64,000 nt of DNA from Microbacterium sp. ProA8 (lineage in GTDB: Bacteria > Actinomycetota > Actinomycetes > Actinomycetales > Microbacteriaceae), in assembly GCF_039905635.1 (NCBI RefSeq), contig NZ_CP157000.1:1860001-1924000 (forward strand). Direction: 5' to 3'. Below, piece by piece: positions 1,565 through 29,534 of the stretch. Numbering within the stretch: position 1 is the stretch's first letter; every line of letters starts with the position of its first letter. Below the pieces are notes generated by a model, which ran no database searches, was not told the DNA's origin, and worked only from the letters and a program-made list of their open reading frames with translations. The position numbers were made by a program, and so were the translations under genes.

Positions 1565-4500
1565 GTGGCATCCGACTCCTTCGTTCATCTGCACGTGCAC
1601 AGCGAGTACTCGATGCTCGACGGCGCCGCCAAAATCGGCGCCATGACCCAGGCGGCGGCGGACTACGGCATGCCGGCGATCGCCGTCACCGACCACGGGA
1701 ACACCTTCGCCGCGTTCGAGTTCTACAACGCCGCCAAGGCTGCGGGCGTGAAGCCGATCATCGGCCTCGAGGCCTACGTGACCCCGGGCACGCACCGCAG
1801 CGACAAGTCGCGCGTCCAATGGGGTTCACCCGAGCAGAAGAGCGATGACGTGTCGGGCTCGGGCGCCTACACCCACATGACGATGTGGAGTCAGAGCACG
1901 GAGGGCATGCACAACCTCTTCCGGCTGAGCTCGCTGTCGAGCATGGAGGGGTACTACTTCAAGCCGCGCATGGACCGGGAGCTGCTGGAGACCTACGGCA
2001 AGGGTCTCATCGCGACGACGGGCTGCCCGTCCGGGGAGGTGCAGACGCGCCTGCGGCTCGGCCAGTACGACGCCGCGCGCGCGGCGGCCGCGGAATTCCA
2101 GGACATCTTCGGCAAGGAGAACTACTTCGCCGAGATCATGGACCACGGGCTCTCGATCGAGCGCCGCGTCATGACCGACCTGATCCGCCTTTCGAAGGAT
2201 CTCGGCATCCCCCTCGTCGCCACCAACGACTCCCACTACACCCACCAGCACGAGGCCGACGCGCACGCTGCGCTCCTCTGCGTGCAGTCCGGCTCGACGC
2301 TGGACGACCCGAACCGATTCAAGTTCGACGGCGACGGCTACTACATCAAGACGGCGCAGGAGATGCGGCAGATCTTCCGGGAGCACCCGGAAGCGTGCGA
2401 CAACACCCTGCTCATCGCCGAGCGCTGCGAGGTCGAGTTCAACACGAGCGCGAACTACATGCCGCGCTTCCCGGTGCCCGACGGCGAGACCGAAGACAGC
2501 TGGCTCGTCAAGGAGGTCGAGACGGGACTGCACTACCGCTACCCCGACGGCATCCCCGACAAGGTCCGCAAGCAGGCCGAGTACGAGACCGGGATCATCC
2601 TCCAGATGGGCTTTCCCGGCTACTTCCTCGTCGTCGCCGACTTCATCAACTGGGCGAAGGACAACGGCATCCGAGTCGGCCCCGGCCGTGGCTCCGGTGC
2701 CGGCTCGATGGTGGCCTACGCCATGCGCATCACCGATCTCGACCCGCTCGAGCACGGCCTCATCTTCGAGCGGTTCCTCAACCCGGACCGCGTCTCGATG
2801 CCCGACTTCGACGTGGACTTCGACGACCGTCGCCGCGGCGAGGTGATCGACTACGTCACCGAGAAGTACGGCTCCGAGCGCGTCGCGCAGATCGTGACCT
2901 ACGGGACGATCAAGTCGAAGCAGGCCCTGAAGGACGCGGGGCGTGTGCTCGGCTTCCCGTTCAGCATGGGCGAGCGTCTCACGAAGGCGATGCCGCCTGC
3001 CGTGATGGGCAAGGACATGCCGTTGAACGGCATGTTCGACCCGCAGCATCCGCGGTTCAAGGAGGCGAGCGAGTTCCGCGCCCTCATCGACACCGATCCC
3101 GATGCGAAGACGGTCTTCGATCGCGCGCTGGGGCTCGAGGGGCTCAAACGTCAATGGGGCGTGCACGCCGCCGGCGTCATCATGTCCAGCGAACCGCTGC
3201 TCGGCATCATCCCGATCATGCGCCGCGAGCAGGACGGCCAGATCGTCACGCAGTTCGACTACCCGTCGTGCGAGACGCTCGGGCTCATCAAGATGGACTT
3301 CCTGGGGCTGCGCAACCTCACGATCATCTCCGACGCGCTCGACAACATCCGGATGAACCGGGGCGAGGAGCTCGACCTCGAGCATCTCGCGCTCGATGAT
3401 CGCGACGCCTACGACCTGCTCACCCGCGGCGACACCCTCGGCGTGTTCCAGCTCGACGGTGGCCCGATGCGGTCGCTCCTGCGCCTTCTGAAGCCCGACA
3501 ACTTCGAGGACATCTCGGCCGTCATCGCGCTGTACCGACCCGGCCCGATGGGTGCCAACTCGCACATCAACTACGCCCTGCGCAAGAACGGTCAGCAGGA
3601 GATCACGCCGATCCACCCCGAGCTCGAAGAGCCGCTGAGGGACATCCTCGACACCAGCTACGGCCTGATCATCTATCAGGAGCAGGTCATGGCGATCGCG
3701 CAGAAGGTCGCAGGCTTCTCGCTCGGCCAGGCAGACATCCTCCGCCGCGCGATGGGCAAGAAGAAGAAGTCCGAGCTCGACAAGCAGTACGAGGGCTTCT
3801 CCGGCGGCATGAAGGAGCGCGGCTTCGGCGATGACGCCATCAAGGCGCTGTGGGACATCCTGCTGCCCTTCTCGGACTACGCGTTCAACAAGGCGCACTC
3901 GGCCGCGTACGGCCTGGTCTCGTACTGGACCGCGTACCTCAAAGCGCACTATCCCGCCGAGTACATGGCGGCGCTGCTGACCAGCGTCGGCGACTCCAAA
4001 GACAAGATGGCGGTATACCTCAACGAATGCCGCCGCATGGGCATCAAGGTGCTGCCGCCTGACGTGGGCGAGTCGATCCGATACTTCGCGGCAGTGGGGG
4101 AGGACATCCGATTCGGACTCGGCGCCGTCCGCAACGTCGGTGCCAACGTGGTCGACGGCATCGTCACCGCACGCAAGGATGCGACGTTCGCGTCGTTCCA
4201 CGACTTCCTGGTCAAAGTCCCGATGCATGTGGCCAACAAGCGCACCATCGAGTCGCTCATCAAGGCCGGTGCGTTCGACTCCATGGGCGACACTCGCCGT
4301 GCTCTGCTCGAGGTGCATGAGGATGCGACCGAAGCGGCCGTCGACCGCAAGCGGAACGAGGCGCAGGGCGCCATCGGGTTCGATTTCGACAGCCTGTACG
4401 ACGCCGTCGAAGAGGTCGCGCCGCCGAAGGTGCCGCCGCGTCCGGAGTGGACCAAGAAGGACAAGCTCGCCTTCGAGCGCGAGATGCTGGGCCTCTACGT

Positions 4501-5083
4501 ATCGGATCACCCGCTCGCGGGTCTCGAGATCCCGCTCGCCAAGCACGCCTCGACGAGCATCCACGACCTGCTGGCGTCGGAAGACATCGGCGACGGCGAC
4601 CAGGTGACGATCGCGGGCCTCGTGACCAGCGTGCAGCACCGCGTGGCCAAGCAGAGCGGCAATCCCTACGGCATGATCACGGTCGAGGACTTCGACGGCG
4701 AGATCACCGTGATGTTCATGGGCAAGACGTACACCGAGTTCCAGCACATGCTCGTGGCCGACTCGATCCTCGTGGTGCGCGGGCGGGTGTCGCGACGCGA
4801 CGACGGCATGAACCTGCATGCGCAGTCGGCGTTCACCCCCGATCTCGGCACGGTCGACGACTCGAGCTCTTTGGTGCTCGTCATGCCCGAGCGTCGCGCG
4901 AGCGAAGCCCTCATCGGCGAGCTGCTGCTGACCCTGACCCGCCACGCGGGTGACACCGAGGTGTCGCTCAAGCTCCACAGCGGCACCGTGGCGAAGGTCT
5001 TCGAGGTGCCGCACACGGTGCGGATCACCCCTGATCTGTACGGCGAGCTGAAAGGTCTTCTCGGGCCGCAGTGCCTGGGATGA
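1565..5083 (+). CDS. dnaE: DNA polymerase III subunit alpha (replicative polymerase)
   Basis: The 1172-residue product is the catalytic subunit of the replicative polymerase. The N-terminal PHP domain begins at once (HLHVHSEYSMLDG, residues 8-20) and carries the histidines and aspartates of its metal site. The polymerase active site is visible around residues 405-425 as PDFDVDFDD, with the catalytic aspartates. Two helix-hairpin-helix/OB-fold regions follow, and the C-terminus carries the OB nucleic-acid-binding domain (VTIAGLVTSVQHR). The length is normal for DnaE1. The GTG start is chosen because MASDSFVHLHVHSEYSMLDG matches family N-termini and a TAGACT -10 lies six bases upstream. It is monocistronic. 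Confidence 0.98.
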   Translation: MASDSFVHLHVHSEYSMLDGAAKIGAMTQAAADYGMPAIAVTDHGNTFAAFEFYNAAKAAGVKPIIGLEAYVTPGTHRSDKSRVQWGSPEQKSDDVSGSGAYTHMTMWSQSTEGMHNLFRLSSLSSMEGYYFKPRMDRELLETYGKGLIATTGCPSGEVQTRLRLGQYDAARAAAAEFQDIFGKENYFAEIMDHGLSIERRVMTDLIRLSKDLGIPLVATNDSHYTHQHEADAHAALLCVQSGSTLDDPNRFKFDGDGYYIKTAQEMRQIFREHPEACDNTLLIAERCEVEFNTSANYMPRFPVPDGETEDSWLVKEVETGLHYRYPDGIPDKVRKQAEYETGIILQMGFPGYFLVVADFINWAKDNGIRVGPGRGSGAGSMVAYAMRITDLDPLEHGLIFERFLNPDRVSMPDFDVDFDDRRRGEVIDYVTEKYGSERVAQIVTYGTIKSKQALKDAGRVLGFPFSMGERLTKAMPPAVMGKDMPLNGMFDPQHPRFKEASEFRALIDTDPDAKTVFDRALGLEGLKRQWGVHAAGVIMSSEPLLGIIPIMRREQDGQIVTQFDYPSCETLGLIKMDFLGLRNLTIISDALDNIRMNRGEELDLEHLALDDRDAYDLLTRGDTLGVFQLDGGPMRSLLRLLKPDNFEDISAVIALYRPGPMGANSHINYALRKNGQQEITPIHPELEEPLRDILDTSYGLIIYQEQVMAIAQKVAGFSLGQADILRRAMGKKKKSELDKQYEGFSGGMKERGFGDDAIKALWDILLPFSDYAFNKAHSAAYGLVSYWTAYLKAHYPAEYMAALLTSVGDSKDKMAVYLNECRRMGIKVLPPDVGESIRYFAAVGEDIRFGLGAVRNVGANVVDGIVTARKDATFASFHDFLVKVPMHVANKRTIESLIKAGAFDSMGDTRRALLEVHEDATEAAVDRKRNEAQGAIGFDFDSLYDAVEEVAPPKVPPRPEWTKKDKLAFEREMLGLYVSDHPLAGLEIPLAKHASTSIHDLLASEDIGDGDQVTIAGLVTSVQHRVAKQSGNPYGMITVEDFDGEITVMFMGKTYTEFQHMLVADSILVVRGRVSRRDDGMNLHAQSAFTPDLGTVDDSSSLVLVMPERRASEALIGELLLTLTRHAGDTEVSLKLHSGTVAKVFEVPHTVRITPDLYGELKGLLGPQCLG

Positions 5084-5087
5084 CGCG

Positions 5088-5123
5088 GTGACGCGAAGGC
5101 GACGACGAATGTCGCCGTGTCAC
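5088..5123 (+). terminator. Possible terminator after dnaE
   Basis: A two-part stem follows the dnaE stop: GTGAC pairs with GTCAC outside, and GGCGAC pairs with GTCGCC inside around a 7-base loop. There is no T tract. Confidence 0.35.
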
Positions 5124-5156
5124 GCGTGGTCTCATCGCGGTCTCATGGGCCGTGGG

Positions 5157-5162
5157 TAATAT
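5157..5162 (+). promoter_or_regulatory. -10 element TAATAT
   Basis: An unusually AT-rich hexamer for this DNA, 39 bases upstream of the GTG at 5202. It fits a standard -10 with a short leader. Confidence 0.45.
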
Positions 5163-5201
5163 CGGGTCGACGCGGGCCTCAGTCCGCCGGAAGGGACGAT
5201 C

Positions 5202-6338
5202 GTGACGGACGAGAAGCAGGACGGGAACATCGACGAGGCGGTTGCGACCGAAGAGCCGCCGCAGTACGGAGTGGGGCCGTTCTCGATCCGCGAGGTCGCC
5301 CTCGCGGGCACGTGGCTCGTCGCATTCGTGGTGTCGTTCTTCCCGATCTACGGAGACCTGGGCGAAGGTCCGTCGGTCTGGAGCAGCGGGATCGACTGGG
5401 TTCTCACCGTGGGCGTGCCCACGGTGGCGGTGTTCCTCATCGTGTTGCGCCGGCTCTCGCCGCAGGGCATCCGCCGGGTCGGATCCCTCGGGATCGACCA
5501 GTTCGCGTCCGTCGCGTTCTCGGTCGCCACCGTGCTGTGGCTCACCATCATCTGGAACTCGTTCATCCGGCTCGCCAATCAACGCGAGTTCCTCGGCACC
5601 TGGGTCGTGTGGGTGGAGTTCTTCCTCATGCTCGCCGGCGTCTTCCTTACCGTGCTGGCGCCGTTCATCGCGCCCTTCGCCCAGGACTTCCGCGGTCGCC
5701 CCGAGGTTCCGGCCCATCGCAGCGCCCGTCCGGTGCTGCCGGTTTCGCCCCGCCCGGCGTTCGTGCGACAGGAGCCCGCCGCCGACGAGTACGCGCCCTA
5801 CGCCGACAGCGACAGCACCGACGACAACGCTTATGGAGCCGCCCCGGCGTACGCCGCTCAGGCACCCGCGACGCCGTACGCCGACTCTTCTACGAGCCGG
5901 GAGGCCGAGGCCGCGGGCGTCGACGAGACGCCCCGCGCCGCGGCCGATGACGCCGAGACCACGGTCCTCCCGCTCGACGAGCACGACGCCGACGCCGATG
6001 TGCGCGCGGACGCCGCCGCGCCGGCGACCGCGACCACCGTCGTCGCCGAGGAGCCCGCGGCGACCGAGCCGGTCCACGCGCGCGAGTCGTTCGAGCACGT
6101 CGAGAATCCGTCGTCGACGGTCGAGCCGGCTGCAGCGACCGCGCCTCAGCACCAGGCGTTCTGGGCCCTCGTTCCGGAGGAGCGCGACATCGTGGACGAG
6201 ATCGGCATCCCGGTGTTCCGCATCGGACCGACCGCCTGGGCGCTTGTCATCGAGGATCGCGGCGACGCCTTCGTGGTGCGCCACGAGGACGGTCGCATCG
6301 GTTACCTGCACGACGTCTCGGGCGTCACGCGCGGCTGA
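5202..6338 (+). CDS. Integral membrane protein with disordered linker and conserved C-terminal domain
   Basis: A 378-residue protein that I cannot assign to a function. Residues 28-165 contain four predicted membrane helices (LAGTWLVAFVVSFFPIY, WVLTVGVPTVAVFLIVL, FASVAFSVATVLWLTII, VEFFLMLAGVFLTVLAPF). Residues 170-310 are a low-complexity Pro/Ala/Asp/Glu segment, probably a disordered cytoplasmic linker. The last 55 residues (from VPEERDIVDEIGIPVFRIG) look compact and conserved-like. The GTG start has a GGAAGGGACG ribosome binding site. It sits alone between dnaE and hisD. Confidence 0.75.
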   Translation: MTDEKQDGNIDEAVATEEPPQYGVGPFSIREVALAGTWLVAFVVSFFPIYGDLGEGPSVWSSGIDWVLTVGVPTVAVFLIVLRRLSPQGIRRVGSLGIDQFASVAFSVATVLWLTIIWNSFIRLANQREFLGTWVVWVEFFLMLAGVFLTVLAPFIAPFAQDFRGRPEVPAHRSARPVLPVSPRPAFVRQEPAADEYAPYADSDSTDDNAYGAAPAYAAQAPATPYADSSTSREAEAAGVDETPRAAADDAETTVLPLDEHDADADVRADAAAPATATTVVAEEPAATEPVHARESFEHVENPSSTVEPAAATAPQHQAFWALVPEERDIVDEIGIPVFRIGPTAWALVIEDRGDAFVVRHEDGRIGYLHDVSGVTRG

Positions 6339-6356
6339 GCGCGTCCGCCCGCGCGG

Positions 6357-6362
6357 TACCGT
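6357..6362 (+). promoter_or_regulatory. Leaderless -10 element of hisD (TACCGT)
   Basis: TACCGT is followed by six bases and then the ATG of hisD, with no ribosome binding site. Confidence 0.55.
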
Positions 6363-6368
6363 AGACGG

Positions 6369-7670
6369 ATGCTCCGGACGATCGACCTGCGCGGGCGCAC
6401 GCTCTCGCCCGCTGAACTGCTCGCGACCGTTCCCCGTGCCGCCGCGGCGCGGGAGGAGGCCCTCGCGACGGCGGCGCACATCGTCGACGACGTCGCGGCT
6501 CGCGGCGAGACAGCTCTGCGCGAGCAGGCCGAGAGATTCGACGGCGCCACGGACCACGACATCCGGGTTCCCGCCGCGCACCTCGACGAGGCCCTTGCGG
6601 CGCTCGACCCGGGGGTGCGTTCGGCACTCGAAGAAGCCATCGCGCGCGTCCGGGTGGCGTCCGCAGCCCAGGTTCCGGCGCCGACGGTCACCGACCTCGG
6701 ACCCGGCGCGCGGGTGACGCAGCGGTGGCAGCCGGTGCGTCGCGTCGGCCTGTACGTCCCGGGCGGCAAGGCGGTCTACCCCTCGAGCGTCGTGATGAAC
6801 GTCGTGCCCGCCCAGGTGGCCGGCGTGAGTGAGATCGCGCTCGCCTCGCCGCCGCAGCGCCAGTTCGGCGGCCGGGTGCACCCGGTGATCCTCGGCGCCG
6901 CGCGCCTCCTCGGCGTCACCGAGGTGTACGCGATGGGCGGGGCGGGGGCGATCGGCGCGCTCGCGCACGGCGTCGCGTCGCTCGGCCTCGAGCCGGTGGA
7001 CGTCGTCACCGGCCCCGGCAACAACTTCGTGGCCGCCGCCAAGCGCGCGGTCGCGGGTCTGGTCGGGACGGATGCCGAAGCCGGCGCCACCGAGATCCTC
7101 GTGGTCGCCGACGACACGGCCGACGCGCGCCTGGTCGCCGTCGACCTCATCAGCCAGGCCGAGCACGACGAACAGGCCTCCGCCGTGCTGGTGACGACCT
7201 CCGAGCGCCTGGCGGACGAGGTGCGCGCGGCGATCGCCCCGCGGGCGGCGGTGACGCGGCACGCCGAGCGCGTCGCCACGGCACTCGCCGGCCCGCAGTC
7301 CGCGATCGTGCTCGTCGACGACCTCGCAGCGGCCACGGCGTTTTCGAACGCGTATGCGCCGGAGCACCTCGAGCTGCACCTGGCCGACCCCCGCCCAGGG
7401 GACTTCGTCCACGCGGGCGCGGTGTTCGTGGGGCCGGACTCGCCGGTCAGCCTCGGCGACTACCTCGCCGGCAGCAACCACGTGCTGCCCACCGGCGGCC
7501 AGGCGCGCTACGCGGCCGGACTGTCGGCCGCGACCTTCCTGCGCCCGCAGCAGGTCATCGAGTACGACCGCGACGCGCTCTCGGTCGTCCGCGACGCGAT
7601 CGTGACTCTGGCCGAGGCGGAGGCTCTCCCCGCCCACGGCGAGGCGATCACAGCCCGGTTCCAGGACTGA
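6369..7670 (+). CDS. hisD: Histidinol dehydrogenase
   Basis: The 433-residue enzyme performs the last two NAD-dependent oxidations of histidine synthesis, histidinol to histidine. The family signature is clear: RVGLYVPGGKAVYPSSVVMN near residues 122-142, GPGNNFVAAAKR near 217, the E/H pair of the active site in YAPEHLEL near 330, and zinc-binding residues in DLISQAEHDE. The length is normal. The rest of the histidine operon is not next to it here; nrdR and pyrD follow, each with its own leaderless promoter, so hisD is probably transcribed alone. Confidence 0.97.
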   Translation: MLRTIDLRGRTLSPAELLATVPRAAAAREEALATAAHIVDDVAARGETALREQAERFDGATDHDIRVPAAHLDEALAALDPGVRSALEEAIARVRVASAAQVPAPTVTDLGPGARVTQRWQPVRRVGLYVPGGKAVYPSSVVMNVVPAQVAGVSEIALASPPQRQFGGRVHPVILGAARLLGVTEVYAMGGAGAIGALAHGVASLGLEPVDVVTGPGNNFVAAAKRAVAGLVGTDAEAGATEILVVADDTADARLVAVDLISQAEHDEQASAVLVTTSERLADEVRAAIAPRAAVTRHAERVATALAGPQSAIVLVDDLAAATAFSNAYAPEHLELHLADPRPGDFVHAGAVFVGPDSPVSLGDYLAGSNHVLPTGGQARYAAGLSAATFLRPQQVIEYDRDALSVVRDAIVTLAEAEALPAHGEAITARFQD

Positions 7671-7686
7671 GACCGGATTCCCGGCG

Positions 7687-7692
7687 TAGGCT
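7687..7692 (+). promoter_or_regulatory. -10 element of nrdR (TAGGCT)
   Basis: TAGGCT lies nine bases before the ATG and no ribosome binding site is seen, so the transcript is leaderless or nearly so. Confidence 0.5.
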
Positions 7693-7701
7693 GTCTCTGC
7701 C

Positions 7702-8193
7702 ATGCACTGCCCGTTCTGCCGCCACGCCGATTCGCGCGTCATCGACTCGCGCACCAGCGACGACGGTCTCAGCATCCGTCGCCGTCGTCAGTGCCCCCAA
7801 TGCGGTGGCCGCTTCACGACGATCGAGACCGCCAGCCTCAACGTCATCAAGCGCTCCGGCGTGATCGAGCCGTTCAGCCGCGAGAAGGTCATGTCCGGCG
7901 TGCGGAAGGCCTGTCAGGGTCGTCCGGTGACGGAAGCGGATCTTGCGGTGCTCGCCCAGACGGTGGAGGAGAGCATCCGTCAGACCGGCGCCTCGCAGCT
8001 CGACGCCAACGAGATCGGGCTGGCCATCCTCGGACCACTGCGCGACCTGGACGAGGTGGCGTACCTGCGATTCGCGAGCGTCTACCAGGCGTTCGACTCG
8101 CTCGAGGACTTCGAGACGGCCATCGAGCAGCTGCGCGTGGACCACGGCCGCGCCCGCTCCGCGGACGAGGACGCAGCGGTCGCGGGGGAGTGA
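7702..8193 (+). CDS. nrdR: Transcriptional repressor NrdR
   Basis: A 163-residue regulator of ribonucleotide reductase genes. The N-terminal zinc ribbon is intact: Cys3, Cys6, Cys31 and Cys34 (MHCPFCRH ... [11 protein letters not shown]). An ATP-cone follows from about residue 46 to 136, where dATP/ATP levels are sensed ([19 protein letters not shown]). The length is typical. No nrd genes lie in this window, so its targets, recognised through NrdR boxes, must be elsewhere. Confidence 0.97.
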
Positions 8194-8198
8194 CCGGA

Positions 8199-8204
8199 TA
8201 GCCT
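8199..8204 (+). promoter_or_regulatory. -10 element of pyrD (TAGCCT)
   Basis: TAGCCT overlaps the region just after the nrdR stop and is followed by AGGAGGG and then ATG. The purine run sits too close to the start to be a good ribosome binding site, so leaderless initiation is plausible. Confidence 0.45.
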
Positions 8205-8211
8205 AGGAGGG

Positions 8212-9237
8212 ATGTATCCCCTCCTCTTCCGCACCGTGCTGTCGCGCATGGATCCCGAGTCCGCCCACCACAGTGCGATGGTCGTGATCCGGGTGCTGGG
8301 GGTCCGGCCCTTCTCGTGGGTCGCGCGCTCGATCACCCGGCCCGCCCCCCGACTTGCGACGACCGCGCTCGGTCTCGCGTTCGACTCGCCGTTCGGTGTC
8401 GCGGCAGGATTCGACAAGGACGTGAAGGGTGCGGCGGGGCTTCACGCCCTCGGTTTCGGTCACGTCGAGGTCGGCACCGTGACGGCGATCCCGCAGGAGG
8501 GAAACCCGCGCCCGCGGCTCTTCCGCCTGATCCCGGACCGCGCGGTCGTCAACCGCATGGGGTTCAACAATCACGGCGCCGAGGCTGCGGCCACCCGGCT
8601 GCGCCGGCTGCGCCGCCGCTCGCGGCGCACGGTGCTCGGTGTCAACATCGGCAAGAGTCGCGTCGTCGAGGTCGCCGACGCCACCGCCGACTACGTGCGC
8701 AGCGCGACGCTGCTCGCGCCGCTCGCCGACTACCTCGTCGTCAACGTGTCGTCGCCGAACACGCCGGGACTCCGCGGGCTGCAGGCCGCAGAGACGCTGC
8801 GGCCGCTGCTGGAGGCCGTGCGCCAGGCGGCGGGCACCACGCCGCTGCTGGTCAAGATCGCGCCCGACCTGCCCGACGACGAGGTCGTCGCGATCGCGCA
8901 CCTCGCCGTCGACGCAGGACTGGCGGGCATTATCGCCACGAACACGACGATCTCGCGCGACGGGCTGGTCACCGATCCCGCCGTCGTCGCCGCTGCCGGA
9001 GACGGCGGTCTGTCGGGAGCCCCGCTGAAGGCGCGCGCGCTCGAGGTGCTGCGGCTGCTGCGCGAGACGGTTCCCGCCGGCTTCTGCGTCATCTCCGTCG
9101 GCGGGGTGGAGACGGCCGACGACGTGCAGGAGCGGCTGGATGCCGGAGCCACCCTGGTGCAGGGGTACACGGCTTTCCTCTACCGCGGCCCGCTGTGGGC
9201 CCGGCAGATCAACCGAGGGCTGGCGAAGCAGCGCTGA
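8212..9237 (+). CDS. pyrD: Dihydroorotate dehydrogenase (quinone), class 2
   Basis: A 341-residue flavoenzyme that oxidises dihydroorotate to orotate and passes electrons to the quinone pool. The N-terminal amphipathic extension (MYPLLFRTVLSRMDPESAHH) is the membrane-associating segment typical of class 2. FMN-barrel motifs follow: GVAAGFDKDVKG, VVNRMGFNNHG, and the catalytic serine region NVSSPNTPGLRGLQ near residue 178. TNTTISRDGL and SVGGVETADD bind FMN phosphate. It is separated from the other pyrimidine genes and converges on a membrane protein gene. Confidence 0.96.
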   Translation: MYPLLFRTVLSRMDPESAHHSAMVVIRVLGVRPFSWVARSITRPAPRLATTALGLAFDSPFGVAAGFDKDVKGAAGLHALGFGHVEVGTVTAIPQEGNPRPRLFRLIPDRAVVNRMGFNNHGAEAAATRLRRLRRRSRRTVLGVNIGKSRVVEVADATADYVRSATLLAPLADYLVVNVSSPNTPGLRGLQAAETLRPLLEAVRQAAGTTPLLVKIAPDLPDDEVVAIAHLAVDAGLAGIIATNTTISRDGLVTDPAVVAAAGDGGLSGAPLKARALEVLRLLRETVPAGFCVISVGGVETADDVQERLDAGATLVQGYTAFLYRGPLWARQINRGLAKQR

Positions 9238-24937: not shown

Positions 24938-25115
24938 GCGTTCATCCTGGCATGCGGCTCCGACGCCCGCCGGGCGACCCGAGCGCCACCCGCCGTTCAC
25001 CTGCGCGACGGATGCCGGTCGCACGTCGGCACCCGTCTCGTTCACGTCTCGCGCCCACCGTGGGGAGACAGTCCTGGACTGACACACGGGCGGGATTTCC
25101 GCGAGAGGAGGCGCC

Positions 25116-26045
25116 ATGGGTCGCGAAGACGTGCTGGCGTGGGTCGAGTCGCCCCTGCAGCTGATCGGCGCCGCAGAGTGGGCGGCGTCGCACGGACGGA
25201 CGGTGCCGGTGGCCGGGCGGCTGACGCCTCAGATCTCGGCCACGGCCGACGAGCTGCTCGCCCGCGGCGCGCGCTTCGGCGAGTTGGCGCCCTACCTCGG
25301 CGTGCCGTGGAGTCTGCTCGCCCGTCACGGCCACTGGCTGGTCGGCGACGGGTTCTCGGGCCAGTTCCGCCTCGCCGCCGCGGCGCTGCGCCCGCACCGC
25401 GTCACGTTCCTGGACGACGGCGCGTACGCGATCGCATACGCCGACGCGCTGCTCGGCCGTCGTCCCTACGCGCGGCCGAATGTCGCCGAGCGCGGTCTCA
25501 CCACCGTCGTCGCGCCGTTCGCCGCCGAGCTCGTGCATCGGCGCGCCGCCTCGCGGCGCGCCGGCTTCTTCACCGCGTTCGACCTCGGCGCCGACCGCCT
25601 CGACGGGCTTGCCGACCGCGGTTTCGGCATCCGTCGCCACGACTTCTCGTGGACCCGCGCGACCGCGCCCGCGGCGCCCGCGCTCGGAAGGCGCATCGTG
25701 CTCGGCAGCGCGCTGCCCGTGGACGGCCGCATGATGCTGGTCGACTACGTGCGGTGGGTGCGGGATGCCGCAGCCGGCGGCGCCGTGTACCTCCCGCATC
25801 GCCGCGAGACCGCCGAGCAGCTGGACGCGGTGGCGACGGTTCCCGGTCTGCGGATCCACCGGACCGGCCTGCCGGTGGAACTCGTGCTGGCCGGGGCGCG
25901 GCATCCGCTCGACGTCCACACCCTCCCATCCAGCACCACCACGACGCTGCCGCTCGTGCTCGCGGGCACCGGCGCACGGGTGCTCACGGATGTCGTGGGC
26001 CGGAACGGCGGCGCCCGCCGCTCGGCACGGACGGCCGCCGCATGA
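25116..26045 (+). CDS. Polysialyltransferase/GT52-like sialyltransferase candidate
   Basis: A 309-residue protein without membrane segments. Residues 9-20 (WVESPLQLIGAA) fit the N-terminal SPLQL motif of bacterial GT52 and polysialyltransferase families. FLDDGAY near 98-104 supplies the D/E-D/E-G motif whose acid is the catalytic base. YLPHRRE near 224-230 and HTLPSSTTTTLPL near 267-279 correspond to the HP-like and S-S/T motifs that bind the CMP donor. It overlaps the CMP-sugar synthetase gene by four bases (ATGA), which supports the assignment. The ribosome binding site GAGAGGAGG is strong. Family assignment is from motifs only. Confidence 0.68.
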   Translation: MGREDVLAWVESPLQLIGAAEWAASHGRTVPVAGRLTPQISATADELLARGARFGELAPYLGVPWSLLARHGHWLVGDGFSGQFRLAAAALRPHRVTFLDDGAYAIAYADALLGRRPYARPNVAERGLTTVVAPFAAELVHRRAASRRAGFFTAFDLGADRLDGLADRGFGIRRHDFSWTRATAPAAPALGRRIVLGSALPVDGRMMLVDYVRWVRDAAAGGAVYLPHRRETAEQLDAVATVPGLRIHRTGLPVELVLAGARHPLDVHTLPSSTTTTLPLVLAGTGARVLTDVVGRNGGARRSARTAAA

Positions 26046-27298
26046 GCGAGGCGGTCGCCATCATCCCCGCGCGCGGCGGCTCGAAGGGCATCGCGCGCAA
26101 GAACCTGCAGCGGGTCGGGGGCGTGCCTCTCGTGGCGCGTGCCGTCGACGCGGCGCGCCGGTGCCCGGCCATCGACAGGGTCGTCGTGACGACCGACGAC
26201 GCCGACATCGCGGCGGTCGCCGCCGAGTGGGGTGCCGAGATCATCGAGCGGCCCGCTGAGCTGTCGGGCGACCAGGCGTCCAGCGAAGGGGCGCTGCTGC
26301 ATGCACTCGACACGCTGGAGGCGCGCAAGGTCGATGTGGGCGTGCTGGCGTTCCTGCAGGCCACGTCGCCCTTCATCGACGTCGATGCGCTCACCGCAGC
26401 CGTGCAGCTCGTGCGATCCCGCCGGCGTGACAGCGTCTTCTCGGCGGTGGAGACGTACGGCTTCCTGTGGGAGAAGGGTCTCGGCGACGCCGCCGAGCCC
26501 ATCAATCACGAGATCGACGTGCGCCCGCGCCGACAGGATCGCGAGCCGCACTACCTCGAGACCGGCGGCTTCTACGTCATGCGCGCCGCGGGGTTCCGCG
26601 CCGCCCGGCACCGGTTCTTCGGGAGCGTCGGCATCGCCGAGGTCGCACCGCGCACGGCGATCGAGATCGACACGCCGGACGAGATGGAGCTCGCACGGCG
26701 CCTCGCGCCGCTCGCCGACCGTGACAGCCGGGGCGATCGCGCGGTCGCCGTCGACGCCGTGGTGACCGACTTCGACGGGGTGCACACCGACGACACCGTG
26801 CGCGTCGACCAGAACGGCCTCGAGTCGGTGACCGTGAGCCGGTCGGACGGCATGGGGGTCTCACTGCTGCGGGCCGCCGGCATCCCGTTCCTCATCCTCT
26901 CGACCGAGGCGAACCCGGTGGTCGCGGCGCGCGCACGCAAGCTGGGCGTCGACGTGCGACAGGCAGCCGCCGACAAGGCCGCCGTGCTGCGGGAATGGGC
27001 CGAGGACCACGGCATCCCGCTGTCGCGGATCGCGTACCTCGGCAACGACGTCAACGACCTCGCCTGCCTCGAACTCGTCGGGTGGCCCGTCGCGGTGCCC
27101 GAGGCCCACCCGCTGGTCCTCTCGGCCGCGCGCGTCGTCCTCGACAGCCGCGGCGGAGACGGCGCGGTGCGGGATCTGGCTGAGCGCGTACTCGCCGCGC
27201 GGCCGTCCGCGGCCGCCCCCGCTCCGCACGAGGCCGAGCGACCCGGCGGGCGCAACCCTGCAACCGATCACCCCACAGCACCACTGGAGGCATCATGA
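26042..27298 (+). CDS. neuA: Bifunctional CMP-nonulosonate synthetase and KdsC-like HAD phosphatase (NeuA-HAD fusion)
   Basis: A 418-residue fusion. Residues 1-225 are a cytidylyltransferase (VAIIPARGGSKGIARKNL at 5-22 binds CTP; FLQATSPF, and the family metal-binding acids). Residues 237-385 are a HAD phosphatase like KdsC, with the nucleophile and acid Asp243 and Asp245 in DFDGVHTDD, Lys312, and GNDVND at 334-339. All catalytic HAD residues are present, so the protein could dephosphorylate a nonulosonate-9-phosphate and then activate the sugar with CMP. Animal CMAS proteins share this order, with a HAD domain that serves mainly structure. It overlaps both neighbours by four bases. Which nonulosonate is used is unknown. 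Confidence 0.88.
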   Translation: MSEAVAIIPARGGSKGIARKNLQRVGGVPLVARAVDAARRCPAIDRVVVTTDDADIAAVAAEWGAEIIERPAELSGDQASSEGALLHALDTLEARKVDVGVLAFLQATSPFIDVDALTAAVQLVRSRRRDSVFSAVETYGFLWEKGLGDAAEPINHEIDVRPRRQDREPHYLETGGFYVMRAAGFRAARHRFFGSVGIAEVAPRTAIEIDTPDEMELARRLAPLADRDSRGDRAVAVDAVVTDFDGVHTDDTVRVDQNGLESVTVSRSDGMGVSLLRAAGIPFLILSTEANPVVAARARKLGVDVRQAAADKAAVLREWAEDHGIPLSRIAYLGNDVNDLACLELVGWPVAVPEAHPLVLSAARVVLDSRGGDGAVRDLAERVLAARPSAAAPAPHEAERPGGRNPATDHPTAPLEAS

Positions 27299-28167
27299 CC
27301 GTCACCATCGGATCCCGCGTCGTCGGAGGCGGGCGCCCCGCCTACGTCATCGCCGAGATCGGGCTCAACCACAACGGCGACGTCGACCTCGCCAAGCGGC
27401 TCATCGACGTCGCCGCCGACGCCGGGGCGGACGCCGTGAAGTTCCAGAAGCGCACGCCCGAGATCGCCACGCCCGAGCACATGCGCGACATCCCGCGCGA
27501 CACGCCGTGGGGGCGCATGACGTACCTCGAGTACCGTCGCCGGGTCGAGTTCGACCGCGACCAGTACATCGAGATCTCGGAACACGCCCTGCTGCGGGGG
27601 CTCGAGTGGTTCGCTTCGCCCTGGGACGTGCCGAGCGTCGCCTTCCTCGAGGATCTCGGCGTGGTCGCGCACAAGGTCGCGTCGGCGTCGCTCACCGACA
27701 TCGAGCTGCTCGAGGCCCTGCGCGAGACCGGCAAGCCCGTCATCCTGTCGACCGGCATGTCGACGAGCGAGGAGATCGACGCGGCCATCCAGGTGCTCGG
27801 CACCGACCGCCTCGTGCTCATGCACGCGACCTCGACGTACCCGATGGAGCCGGAAGAGGCGAACATCCGCATGATCCCGGCGCTGCGCGATCGCTACCCC
27901 GGGGTGCCGGTGGGCTACTCGGGACACGAGCGCGGACTGCAGATCTCGCTGGCCGCCGTCGCGCTCGGCGCCGTCGCCGTCGAGCGCCACATCACCCTCG
28001 ACCGCACGATGTGGGGATCGGACCACGCGGCCTCGCTCGAACCGGCAGGTCTGCAGCACCTGGTGCGCGACATCCGCGTCATCGAGGCGGCGCTCGGCGA
28101 CGGCGTCAAGCGCGTGTACCCCGGCGAGCTCGCGCCCATGGCGAAGCTGCGCCGCGTTCCCGCGTGA
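27295..28167 (+). CDS. neuB: N-acylneuraminate synthase family protein lacking the SAF domain
   Basis: A 290-residue NeuB-type TIM barrel that should condense phosphoenolpyruvate with a hexosamine such as ManNAc or its 6-phosphate. Signatures are AEIGLNHNG at 20-28, AVKFQK near 47-52, WFASPWD, STGMSTSEEI, HATSTYP, GYSGHERG, and the metal region ERHITLDRTMWGSDHAAS. The protein stops at KLRRVPA, just where the C-terminal SAF (antifreeze-like) domain of standard 340-360-residue NeuB proteins begins. No SAF-like frame follows; the next gene starts at once. It starts in the ATGA shared with neuA. Confidence 0.9.
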   Translation: MTVTIGSRVVGGGRPAYVIAEIGLNHNGDVDLAKRLIDVAADAGADAVKFQKRTPEIATPEHMRDIPRDTPWGRMTYLEYRRRVEFDRDQYIEISEHALLRGLEWFASPWDVPSVAFLEDLGVVAHKVASASLTDIELLEALRETGKPVILSTGMSTSEEIDAAIQVLGTDRLVLMHATSTYPMEPEEANIRMIPALRDRYPGVPVGYSGHERGLQISLAAVALGAVAVERHITLDRTMWGSDHAASLEPAGLQHLVRDIRVIEAALGDGVKRVYPGELAPMAKLRRVPA

Positions 28168-29534
28168 GTCCGCACGCGCCCGCCGACGGCAGGCCCCGCG
28201 TCGTCGCGATCGCCGATACGGACTCGTATGTGAAGTGGGCGGCGGCGCTCCTCGGCGGGTTGACGGTCGGCGACGCGGCGGAGCGATGGGATGCCGCACT
28301 GCTGGTGCTCGACACACCCCTGGTGGTCAGCGACGGCCAGCTCGCCTCGGCGCTCGCCGGCAGTCGCCTTGCGCGAGACCGCGTGGAACGGATCGCGTAC
28401 GGCCGGCTGACCGCGCGACTCGCCGAGCTGCGAGCCGACGTCGTCGTGATCGGAGCGCGAGGCCCCCTGGTCCGCGTGCTCGCGCGCGACCTCGCCGCCC
28501 TCCCGCACCGGCCGGTCGTCGTGACGGGGCTGCCGGGCATCTCGATCCCGGCGACCCGCCGCGCCGTCGTCTACCGGCTGCAGTGCGACCTCTTCGTGGT
28601 GCATTCGCGGCGCGAGCTGCGGGAGTTCGCGGCGCTGTCGGCGCGCACCGGGTACGCGCATCGGTACGCGCTGGCGACCCTGCCGTTCGCCCGAGGCGCT
28701 CGGGTGGCTGCCGGTGGGGCGGGCGCGCCGACCCCGGCCGGAGGCGACCTCGTCTTCGCGGCGCAGGCCAAGGTTCCGGCCGAGCGAGCGGACCGCCTCG
28801 GGATCGCCCGGATGCTCGTCCGCGCCGCCGAGGCGGACCCGTCGCGGCGGGTCGTGGTGAAGCTGCGCGCAGAGACCGGCGAGCACCAGACGCACGTCGA
28901 GCAGGACGGCTATCCCGAGCTGCTCGCGTCGCTGGGTCCGCTGCCGCCGAACCTGGTCACCTCGACGGGGCCGATGCGCGATGCGCTGACCATGGCGGAG
29001 GGGCTGGTGACGGTGAGCTCGACCGCGGCGATCGAGGCGATCGCGCGCGGCATCCCGGTCATCGCCCTCGACACGTTCGGCGTCTCGCCGCAGCTCATCA
29101 ACGAGACCCTCGCCGACGCCGATCTGCTCGCGGGCGAGGAGGATGTCGTGGCACGCCGGTTCCGGCATCCGGATCCGGAGTGGCTCGACGACAACTACTT
29201 CCACCACCCCGAGGCCGACGACTGGACCGAGCACGTCGAAGCGCTGCTGGCTCAGCGATCAGCGGCTCGCCTGCCGCCTCGCGCGGGATTCGCACGGCGC
29301 GGCGGCGGGCTGCGCGACGCCTGGGAGCGCCGGGTCGCCCTGGGACGCGGCGACACCTCCGCCGCCGGTGCGGTCGCGTATGCGGTCGGCGTCCCGCTGC
29401 GAACGACCGTGCGGCTCGTGCATCGCGCGCGCCGGTTCGTCGCCGGCGAGTATCAGCAGCCGGGACCGGTGGGATCCTCGTCGCACGTGCGGTCTACGAG
29501 CGCCGTCCGCACCTCGACGACGCGCACGTCGTAG
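28164..29534 (+). CDS. DUF6716 putative glycosyltransferase
   Basis: A 456-residue protein started at the GTG that overlaps the neuB stop (GTGA). The N-terminal half begins with a Rossmann-like strand (VVAIADTDSYVKWAAALL), and the second half shows donor-site features of GT-B enzymes (VVVKLRAETGEH, GLVTVSSTAAIEAIARGIPVIAL). This matches DUF6716, a putative glycosyltransferase family. Its place after NeuA and NeuB suggests a role in building a nonulosonate-containing glycan. The last 27 codons run antisense into the convergent gene, so the C-terminus may have been extended by a local rearrangement. Confidence 0.8.
   Translation: MSPHAPADGRPRVVAIADTDSYVKWAAALLGGLTVGDAAERWDAALLVLDTPLVVSDGQLASALAGSRLARDRVERIAYGRLTARLAELRADVVVIGARGPLVRVLARDLAALPHRPVVVTGLPGISIPATRRAVVYRLQCDLFVVHSRRELREFAALSARTGYAHRYALATLPFARGARVAAGGAGAPTPAGGDLVFAAQAKVPAERADRLGIARMLVRAAEADPSRRVVVKLRAETGEHQTHVEQDGYPELLASLGPLPPNLVTSTGPMRDALTMAEGLVTVSSTAAIEAIARGIPVIALDTFGVSPQLINETLADADLLAGEEDVVARRFRHPDPEWLDDNYFHHPEADDWTEHVEALLAQRSAARLPPRAGFARRGGGLRDAWERRVALGRGDTSAAGAVAYAVGVPLRTTVRLVHRARRFVAGEYQQPGPVGSSSHVRSTSAVRTSTTRTS

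Follow-up and report, generated by a model that had tools for sequence, protein, structure and literature searches.

In Streptomyces, teichulosonic acid has been reported as a polymer of galactose and 3-deoxy-D-glycero-D-galacto-non-2-ulosonic acid (KDN) (PMC11481543), and its cluster, SCO4873-4882, is described as being raised with the PhoP regulon (PMC13011467). Within this cluster, SCO4878 has been annotated as a glycosyltransferase, SCO4879 and SCO4882 as hypothetical proteins, SCO4880 as a putative transferase and SCO4881 as a polysaccharide biosynthesis protein (PMC2267785, PMC8269224, PMC4991794). In the phosphorylated KDN route, as reported, mannose-6-phosphate and phosphoenolpyruvate (PEP) yield KDN-9-phosphate, a phosphatase releases KDN, and cytidine triphosphate converts KDN to cytidine monophosphate (CMP)-KDN (PMC6200933, PMC7845648). 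This series of steps was demonstrated in Prymnesium with a phosphatase of Bacteroides thetaiotaomicron (PMC6200933). Here, we describe a cluster of four genes (25116..29534) in a stretch of 64,000 nucleotides from Microbacterium sp. ProA8, hereafter the window. We confirm this cluster, find it conserved, and interpret it as a probable KDN module of the teichulosonic type known from Streptomyces, reduced to four genes.

Starting from mannose-6-phosphate, these four genes probably produce CMP-KDN for a glycan of the cell surface or cell wall; KDN is a sugar related to sialic acid. The product of gene 3 would condense mannose-6-phosphate and PEP to KDN-9-phosphate, the haloacid dehalogenase (HAD) half of gene 2 would remove the phosphate, and the synthetase half of the same protein would couple KDN to CMP. 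Gene 1, with its predicted sialyltransferase fold, would then transfer KDN to an acceptor, and gene 4 may add another sugar to the same glycan. The module could also be raised under phosphate limitation. New elements are the predicted transferase family, a single exchange in the transferase slot and possible Pho control. A compact Microbacterium system of this kind could be used to test the Streptomyces wall polymer pathway, transferase exchange and phosphate control.

Gene content and predicted route to CMP-KDN

The genome is a single contig of 4.37 Mb and is rated 100% complete. All four genes lie on the + strand, and their open reading frames confirmed the predicted joining by three 4-base stop/start overlaps (ATGA, ATGA and GTGA, in order). 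The original prediction had assigned each product to a family and had suggested that the set covers synthesis, dephosphorylation, activation and transfer of a nonulosonate. Pfam backs the assignments of genes 2, 3 and 4, whereas gene 1 had no match to PF07388 or PF07922; the proposed capacity is supported at the level of predicted activities.

Gene 3 (27295..28167, + strand) encodes a NeuB-family protein of 290 aa (PF03102, 268.3 bits), predicted to be a KDN-9-phosphate synthase. No SAF domain was found in it by the Pfam scan, a feature that the original prediction did not mention, and the protein stops at residue 290. The ends of its relatives fall at query position 290-296 in 44 loci and at 306-310 in 86 loci; a SAF domain such as the one in the second NeuB-type protein of this genome (353 aa) would not fit into any of these 130. 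Arg314 of meningococcal NeuB, which belongs to the antifreeze-like (SAF) domain, has been described to interact with N-acetylmannosamine (ManNAc) and to place its N-acetyl group (PMC6795526). Gene 3, lacking SAF, would thus lack an Arg314-type contact, and a SAF-less synthase beside a fused phosphatase would fit a phosphorylated substrate that is not N-acetylated. Classical neuA-neuB-neuC clusters for N-acetylneuraminic acid (Neu5Ac) share the NeuB-type synthase and CMP synthetase; in contrast to them, this genome lacks NeuC, a predicted phosphatase is present and the synthase has no SAF domain.

Gene 2 (26042..27298, + strand; 418 aa) encodes a predicted CMP-nonulosonate synthetase fused to a HAD domain of the KdsC/KDN-9-phosphatase type. 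Its N-terminal part matched PF02348 (CTP_transf_3) with 77.6 bits (cut-off 22.6), followed by a HAD match (Hydrolase_3, 37.3 bits), and the HAD motifs DFDG and GND were found. Among phosphatase models, the NCBIfam model for KDN-9-phosphate phosphatase (NF058599) was the best for residues 239-385, with 94 bits (below its cut-off of 180); the KdsC model gave 86 bits (below its cut-off of 208). Comparison of the phosphatase with PDB sequences gave 80 bits for the 3e81 type and 164 bits for 3mmz. The phosphorylated KDN pathway of B. thetaiotaomicron and Prymnesium parvum likewise combines a NeuB-type synthase, a HAD phosphatase and a CMP synthetase, with a presumed shared start at mannose-6-phosphate. 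However, in the window the phosphatase is fused to the CMP synthetase, and predicted dedicated transferases are present in the operon.

Gene 4 (28164..29534, + strand; 456 aa, GTG start) belongs to DUF6716 (PF20471, 420 bits) and is a putative glycosyltransferase. Its structural model (mean predicted local distance difference test score, pLDDT, 84.0) has GT-B neighbors. A search of open-access literature found no paper on DUF6716. Two DUF6716 genes (L029 and L081) had no genes 1-3 nearby in genomes that also carry the module elsewhere (G182 and G390), and these lone genes point to a broader glycosyltransferase role. Among 14 named control genomes, DUF6716 was over the cut-off only in Escherichia coli, far from actinobacteria.

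With regard to the precursor, the original prediction noted that NeuC was missing, and this observation extends to the whole genome: Epimerase_2 (the NeuC/WecB family), NanE and GlcNAc_2-epim had no match in it at E up to 0.001. The same three families were found in 11, 8 and 2 of the 14 control genomes, respectively. A type I mannose-6-phosphate isomerase was present (PF20511, 75.3 bits). An outside source of the precursor had been concluded from this. However, the KDN route starts at mannose-6-phosphate and needs neither NeuC nor an amino-sugar enzyme, and therefore this puzzle largely dissolves. A KDN route fed by central metabolism would then explain why a nonulosonate cluster can do without NeuC, and predicted roles could be given both to DUF6716 and to a protein family that has no Pfam entry (gene 1).

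A likely Streptomyces counterpart and the probable sugar

The original prediction regarded this kind of system as uncharacterised. This part was not supported, as the same four families adjoin in Streptomyces, arranged as would be expected for the end of SCO4873-4882, and DUF6716 occurs in 117 of 198 sampled Microbacterium genomes. In a sample of 296 genomes of the phylum, DUF6716 was over the cut-off in 12 (in 16 if all matches with E up to 0.001 are counted). We examined 12 DUF6716 regions from the 11 genomes that passed the cut-off, excluding the window's own. Six regions, all from one large-genome genus taken to be Streptomyces (g7), carried DUF6716, gene 2, gene 3 and gene 1 in this order. 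A region from another family (L033) had all four families and a second DUF6716, and no gene 1 was found in the DUF6716 regions L023, L024 and L025.

A larger set was obtained with the gene 1 protein of S. tendae as query, using the best 80 of 566 relatives, nearly all titled Streptomyces; gene 1 is present in these loci by construction. A divergent PF07388-type gene followed by DUF6716, gene 2, gene 3 and gene 1 was observed in 75 of the 80. The other five comprised two with the PF07388-type gene in line, one without it and two with only genes 2, 3 and 1, in which contig ends may play a part; all four families thus occurred together in 78. Based on order and annotation, SCO4879-4882 fits DUF6716, gene 2, gene 3 and gene 1. 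The Streptomyces and Microbacterium clusters share DUF6716, the CMP synthetase/HAD fusion, a SAF-less NeuB and gene 1, whereas the order differs (DUF6716, 2, 3 and gene 1 in Streptomyces and gene 1, 2, 3 and 4 in the window) and gene 1 of the window shares no more than about 30% identity with its Streptomyces counterparts.

Several observations weigh against a KDN module of this type. The phosphatase and synthase equivalog models were all below their cut-offs for genes 2 and 3; the synthase scores of gene 3 were 260 bits for N-acetylneuraminate synthase (NeuB_NnaB, cut-off 399.65) and 208 bits for PseI. The best cytidylyltransferase model for gene 2 was PseF (128.8 bits, cut-off 205.7), not a KDN enzyme. 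S. coelicolor itself was outside the loci compared, and the Planobispora orthologue of SCO4880 has been labelled a sialic acid synthase (PMC8269224), a label suited to gene 3 rather than to the CMP synthetase. In addition, the GT2 and PF07388 genes of the Streptomyces cluster are absent beside the window genes, and the PF07388-type protein of a sister species (L034) had no match in the ProA8 genome at E up to 1e-10. Literature searches found no KDN-containing wall polymer for Microbacterium and no paper joining nonulosonic acid and this genus.

Three other products or supply routes were considered. One is a diamino nonulosonate of the pseudaminic or legionaminic type, made with intermediates from pseudaminic genes elsewhere in the genome; the PseF score of gene 2 and a separate candidate gene set speak for it. 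A second cluster (L035, G000:C1:868000-884000, at 2733-8272) encodes PseB, PseC, a cytidylyltransferase, a PseG-PseH-like fusion and PseI and looks like a pseudaminic acid pathway: PseB was over its cut-off, PseC was just below it (415.7 against 423.5) and the fusion gave weak matches. However, this set has its own cytidylyltransferase domain and its own PseI, a protein of 353 aa with a SAF domain (PF08666) and 418.5 bits (cut-off 340.25), whereas gene 3 scored lower on PseI than on NeuB. The known pseudaminic route also needs no 9-phosphatase, and no PseB, PseC, PseG or PseH domain was found in genes 1-4 with Pfam or NCBIfam. We consider a diamino product very unlikely, and the four genes were rejected as a second pseudaminic route, as the pseudaminic set sits elsewhere in the genome. 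It is equally improbable that DUF6716 is a divergent uridine diphosphate-N-acetylglucosamine 2-epimerase that feeds the synthase and makes the cluster self-sufficient for a ManNAc-derived sugar. This candidate was rejected because, although the fold is close and common to both families, gene 4 had no sequence similarity to Epimerase_2.

A somewhat better, though still unlikely, explanation is that Neu5Ac is made, with the HAD domain acting on Neu5Ac-9-phosphate as in animals and with ManNAc or ManNAc-6-phosphate either taken up or formed by an enzyme that was not recognised. The N-acetylneuraminate synthase model was indeed the top model for gene 3, and its best PDB match, 6ncs, also of 290 aa, is labelled N-acetylneuraminic acid synthetase. 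On the other hand, the three ManNAc-type epimerase families have no match in the genome, which led us to reject Neu5Ac formation via NeuC, NanE or AGE, the Arg314-type contact would be missing with the SAF domain, and the Streptomyces polymer is reported with Kdn (PMC11481543). A KDN module starting from mannose-6-phosphate remains our preferred explanation.

Gene 1 and a probable exchange in the predicted transferase slot

Gene 1 (25116..26045, + strand; 309 aa) is a predicted nonulosonate transferase. Neither Pfam nor NCBIfam gave a family match with E up to 1, and the curated PF07388 model and PF07922 were no exceptions. Its predicted structure (pLDDT 94.8) falls among sialyltransferase-like GT-B folds, and the best structural match was the bacterial polysialyltransferase 5wc6/5wcn; GT52 structures were at ranks 2 and 3 in Foldseek, whereas none was among the 50 VIA-align matches listed. 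The model thus lies within the sialyltransferase folds, whereas a position outside them would have refuted the original prediction. The sialyltransferase character of gene 1 rests on this predicted structure and not on sequence similarity to PF07388 or PF07922. Profile comparison by hhalign detected nothing between gene 1 and PF07388-type proteins (probability 0.1%) or DUF6716, and the gene 1 profile had no match among PDB sequences. Gene 1 therefore resembles the PF07388 alpha-2,8-polysialyltransferases in modelled structure, and a PF07388 protein occupies the same slot in sister species, but profile similarity to that family is absent.

Among the close named homologs of gene 1, nearly all come from Microbacterium. 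For the wider family, a Streptomyces query retrieved 2,128 relatives (E up to 0.001), and the names listed were nearly all "hypothetical protein". In one protein of 537 aa (P0113), a PF02348 domain is combined with a gene-1-like part (97% identity over 64% of the query); genes 1 and 2 may be naturally fused here, or the protein may result from a frameshift or from the assembly.

We analyzed the distribution of these genes in the 198 Microbacterium genomes, using the L034 protein (PF07388, 70 bits) as query for the PF07388 type. Gene 1 was detected in 46 genomes and the PF07388-type protein in 68. Among the 117 genomes with DUF6716, 45 had gene 1, 68 had the PF07388 protein, four had neither and none had both; one fragmented genome had gene 1 without a DUF6716 match. 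The two proteins were together in none of the 198 genomes (Fisher p 3.9e-28 within the 117, overstated given that gene-1-type loci form one clade). Forty loci were then compared from 39 genomes, mostly assemblies with few contigs: 19 were of the gene-1 type, 18 of the PF07388 type, two had neither and one was a lone DUF6716. The order slot 1, gene 2, gene 3 and gene 4 was kept in 39 of the 40, which argues against chance.

A tree of gene 3 was built with 46 rows (43 ingroup and 3 outgroup). All 20 gene-1-type rows, including the window, formed one clade (support 98/92) that branched among PF07388-type rows; branches around this clade were moderately supported. This topology implies one switch, and a single exchange between gene 1 and the PF07388 protein in slot 1 suffices to account for the sampled Microbacterium loci.

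GTTCAC repeats upstream of gene 1

Two direct copies of GTTCAC (24995-25000 and 25040-25045, together 24995..25045, + strand), 45 bp apart, are located upstream of gene 1 and may represent a PhoP-type element. In the 270 bases upstream of the cluster in the window and the 19 gene-1-type loci, GTTCAC or its complement occurred 36 times, compared to 1.45 in mononucleotide shuffles and about 3 expected from the frequency of the motif across the window (34 in 64 kb); since these 20 regions are related, the counts are not independent. Almost all copies (34 of 36) were on the coding strand. By eye, 18 of the 20 regions had at least one coding-strand copy (L065 and L074 had none), and the pair was spaced by 45 bp in 12 and by 44 bp in one more. 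A 5'-3' exonuclease gene lies divergently upstream of gene 1 in the window, and 12 of the 19 other gene-1-type loci have it as well. In L066, L071, L072 and L076 it is 0.8-1.5 kb away and the pair is still there, suggesting that the element goes with gene 1 and not with the exonuclease. In 78 Streptomyces-type loci, GTTCAC is likewise common upstream of DUF6716 (127 copies versus 12.9 in shuffles), a further likeness between the two clusters.

In the whole genome, the pair with 45-bp spacing occurred at three places, the window site included (control 0); one of the other two spans a hairpin between convergent frames and one is inside a long reading frame. GTTCA-N6-GTTCA occurred four times (reversed control 0), and only one of these was before pstS. 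This site, GTTCACCTTCCGTTCACC, about 130 bp before the gene (G000:C1:3021469, L190), carries GTTCACC repeats with a spacing of 11 bp. For S. coelicolor, the PHO box consensus has been given as direct repeats of 11 nt with the sequence GTTCACC (PMC4415409). The pstS site resembles a textbook PHO box, and this suggests that Microbacterium uses a Streptomyces-like PhoP site. Its presence in the same genome makes phosphate control of the four-gene cluster plausible. Two observations argue against such control: a strict 11-bp PHO box was not found before gene 1, where the core motif is present twice at 45 bp, and no GTTCAC was found upstream of 18 PF07388-type clusters (1.4 in shuffles). The element is thus not common to all versions of the module.

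It is tempting, though rather speculative, to suggest that gene 1 founds an unrecognised family of CMP-KDN transferases in Streptomyces and Microbacterium that replaced the PF07388 protein once within Microbacterium, and that phosphate starvation switches on a phosphate-free acidic glycan via a Streptomyces-like PhoP element. If so, this glycan would be a surface polymer of the teichulosonic type, built by a core of four genes.

A further stretch, CCCACCGTGGGGAGAC, is located at 25054-25069 of the window, just downstream of the second GTTCAC, and in several relatives an identical or similar stretch was observed close to where gene 1 starts.

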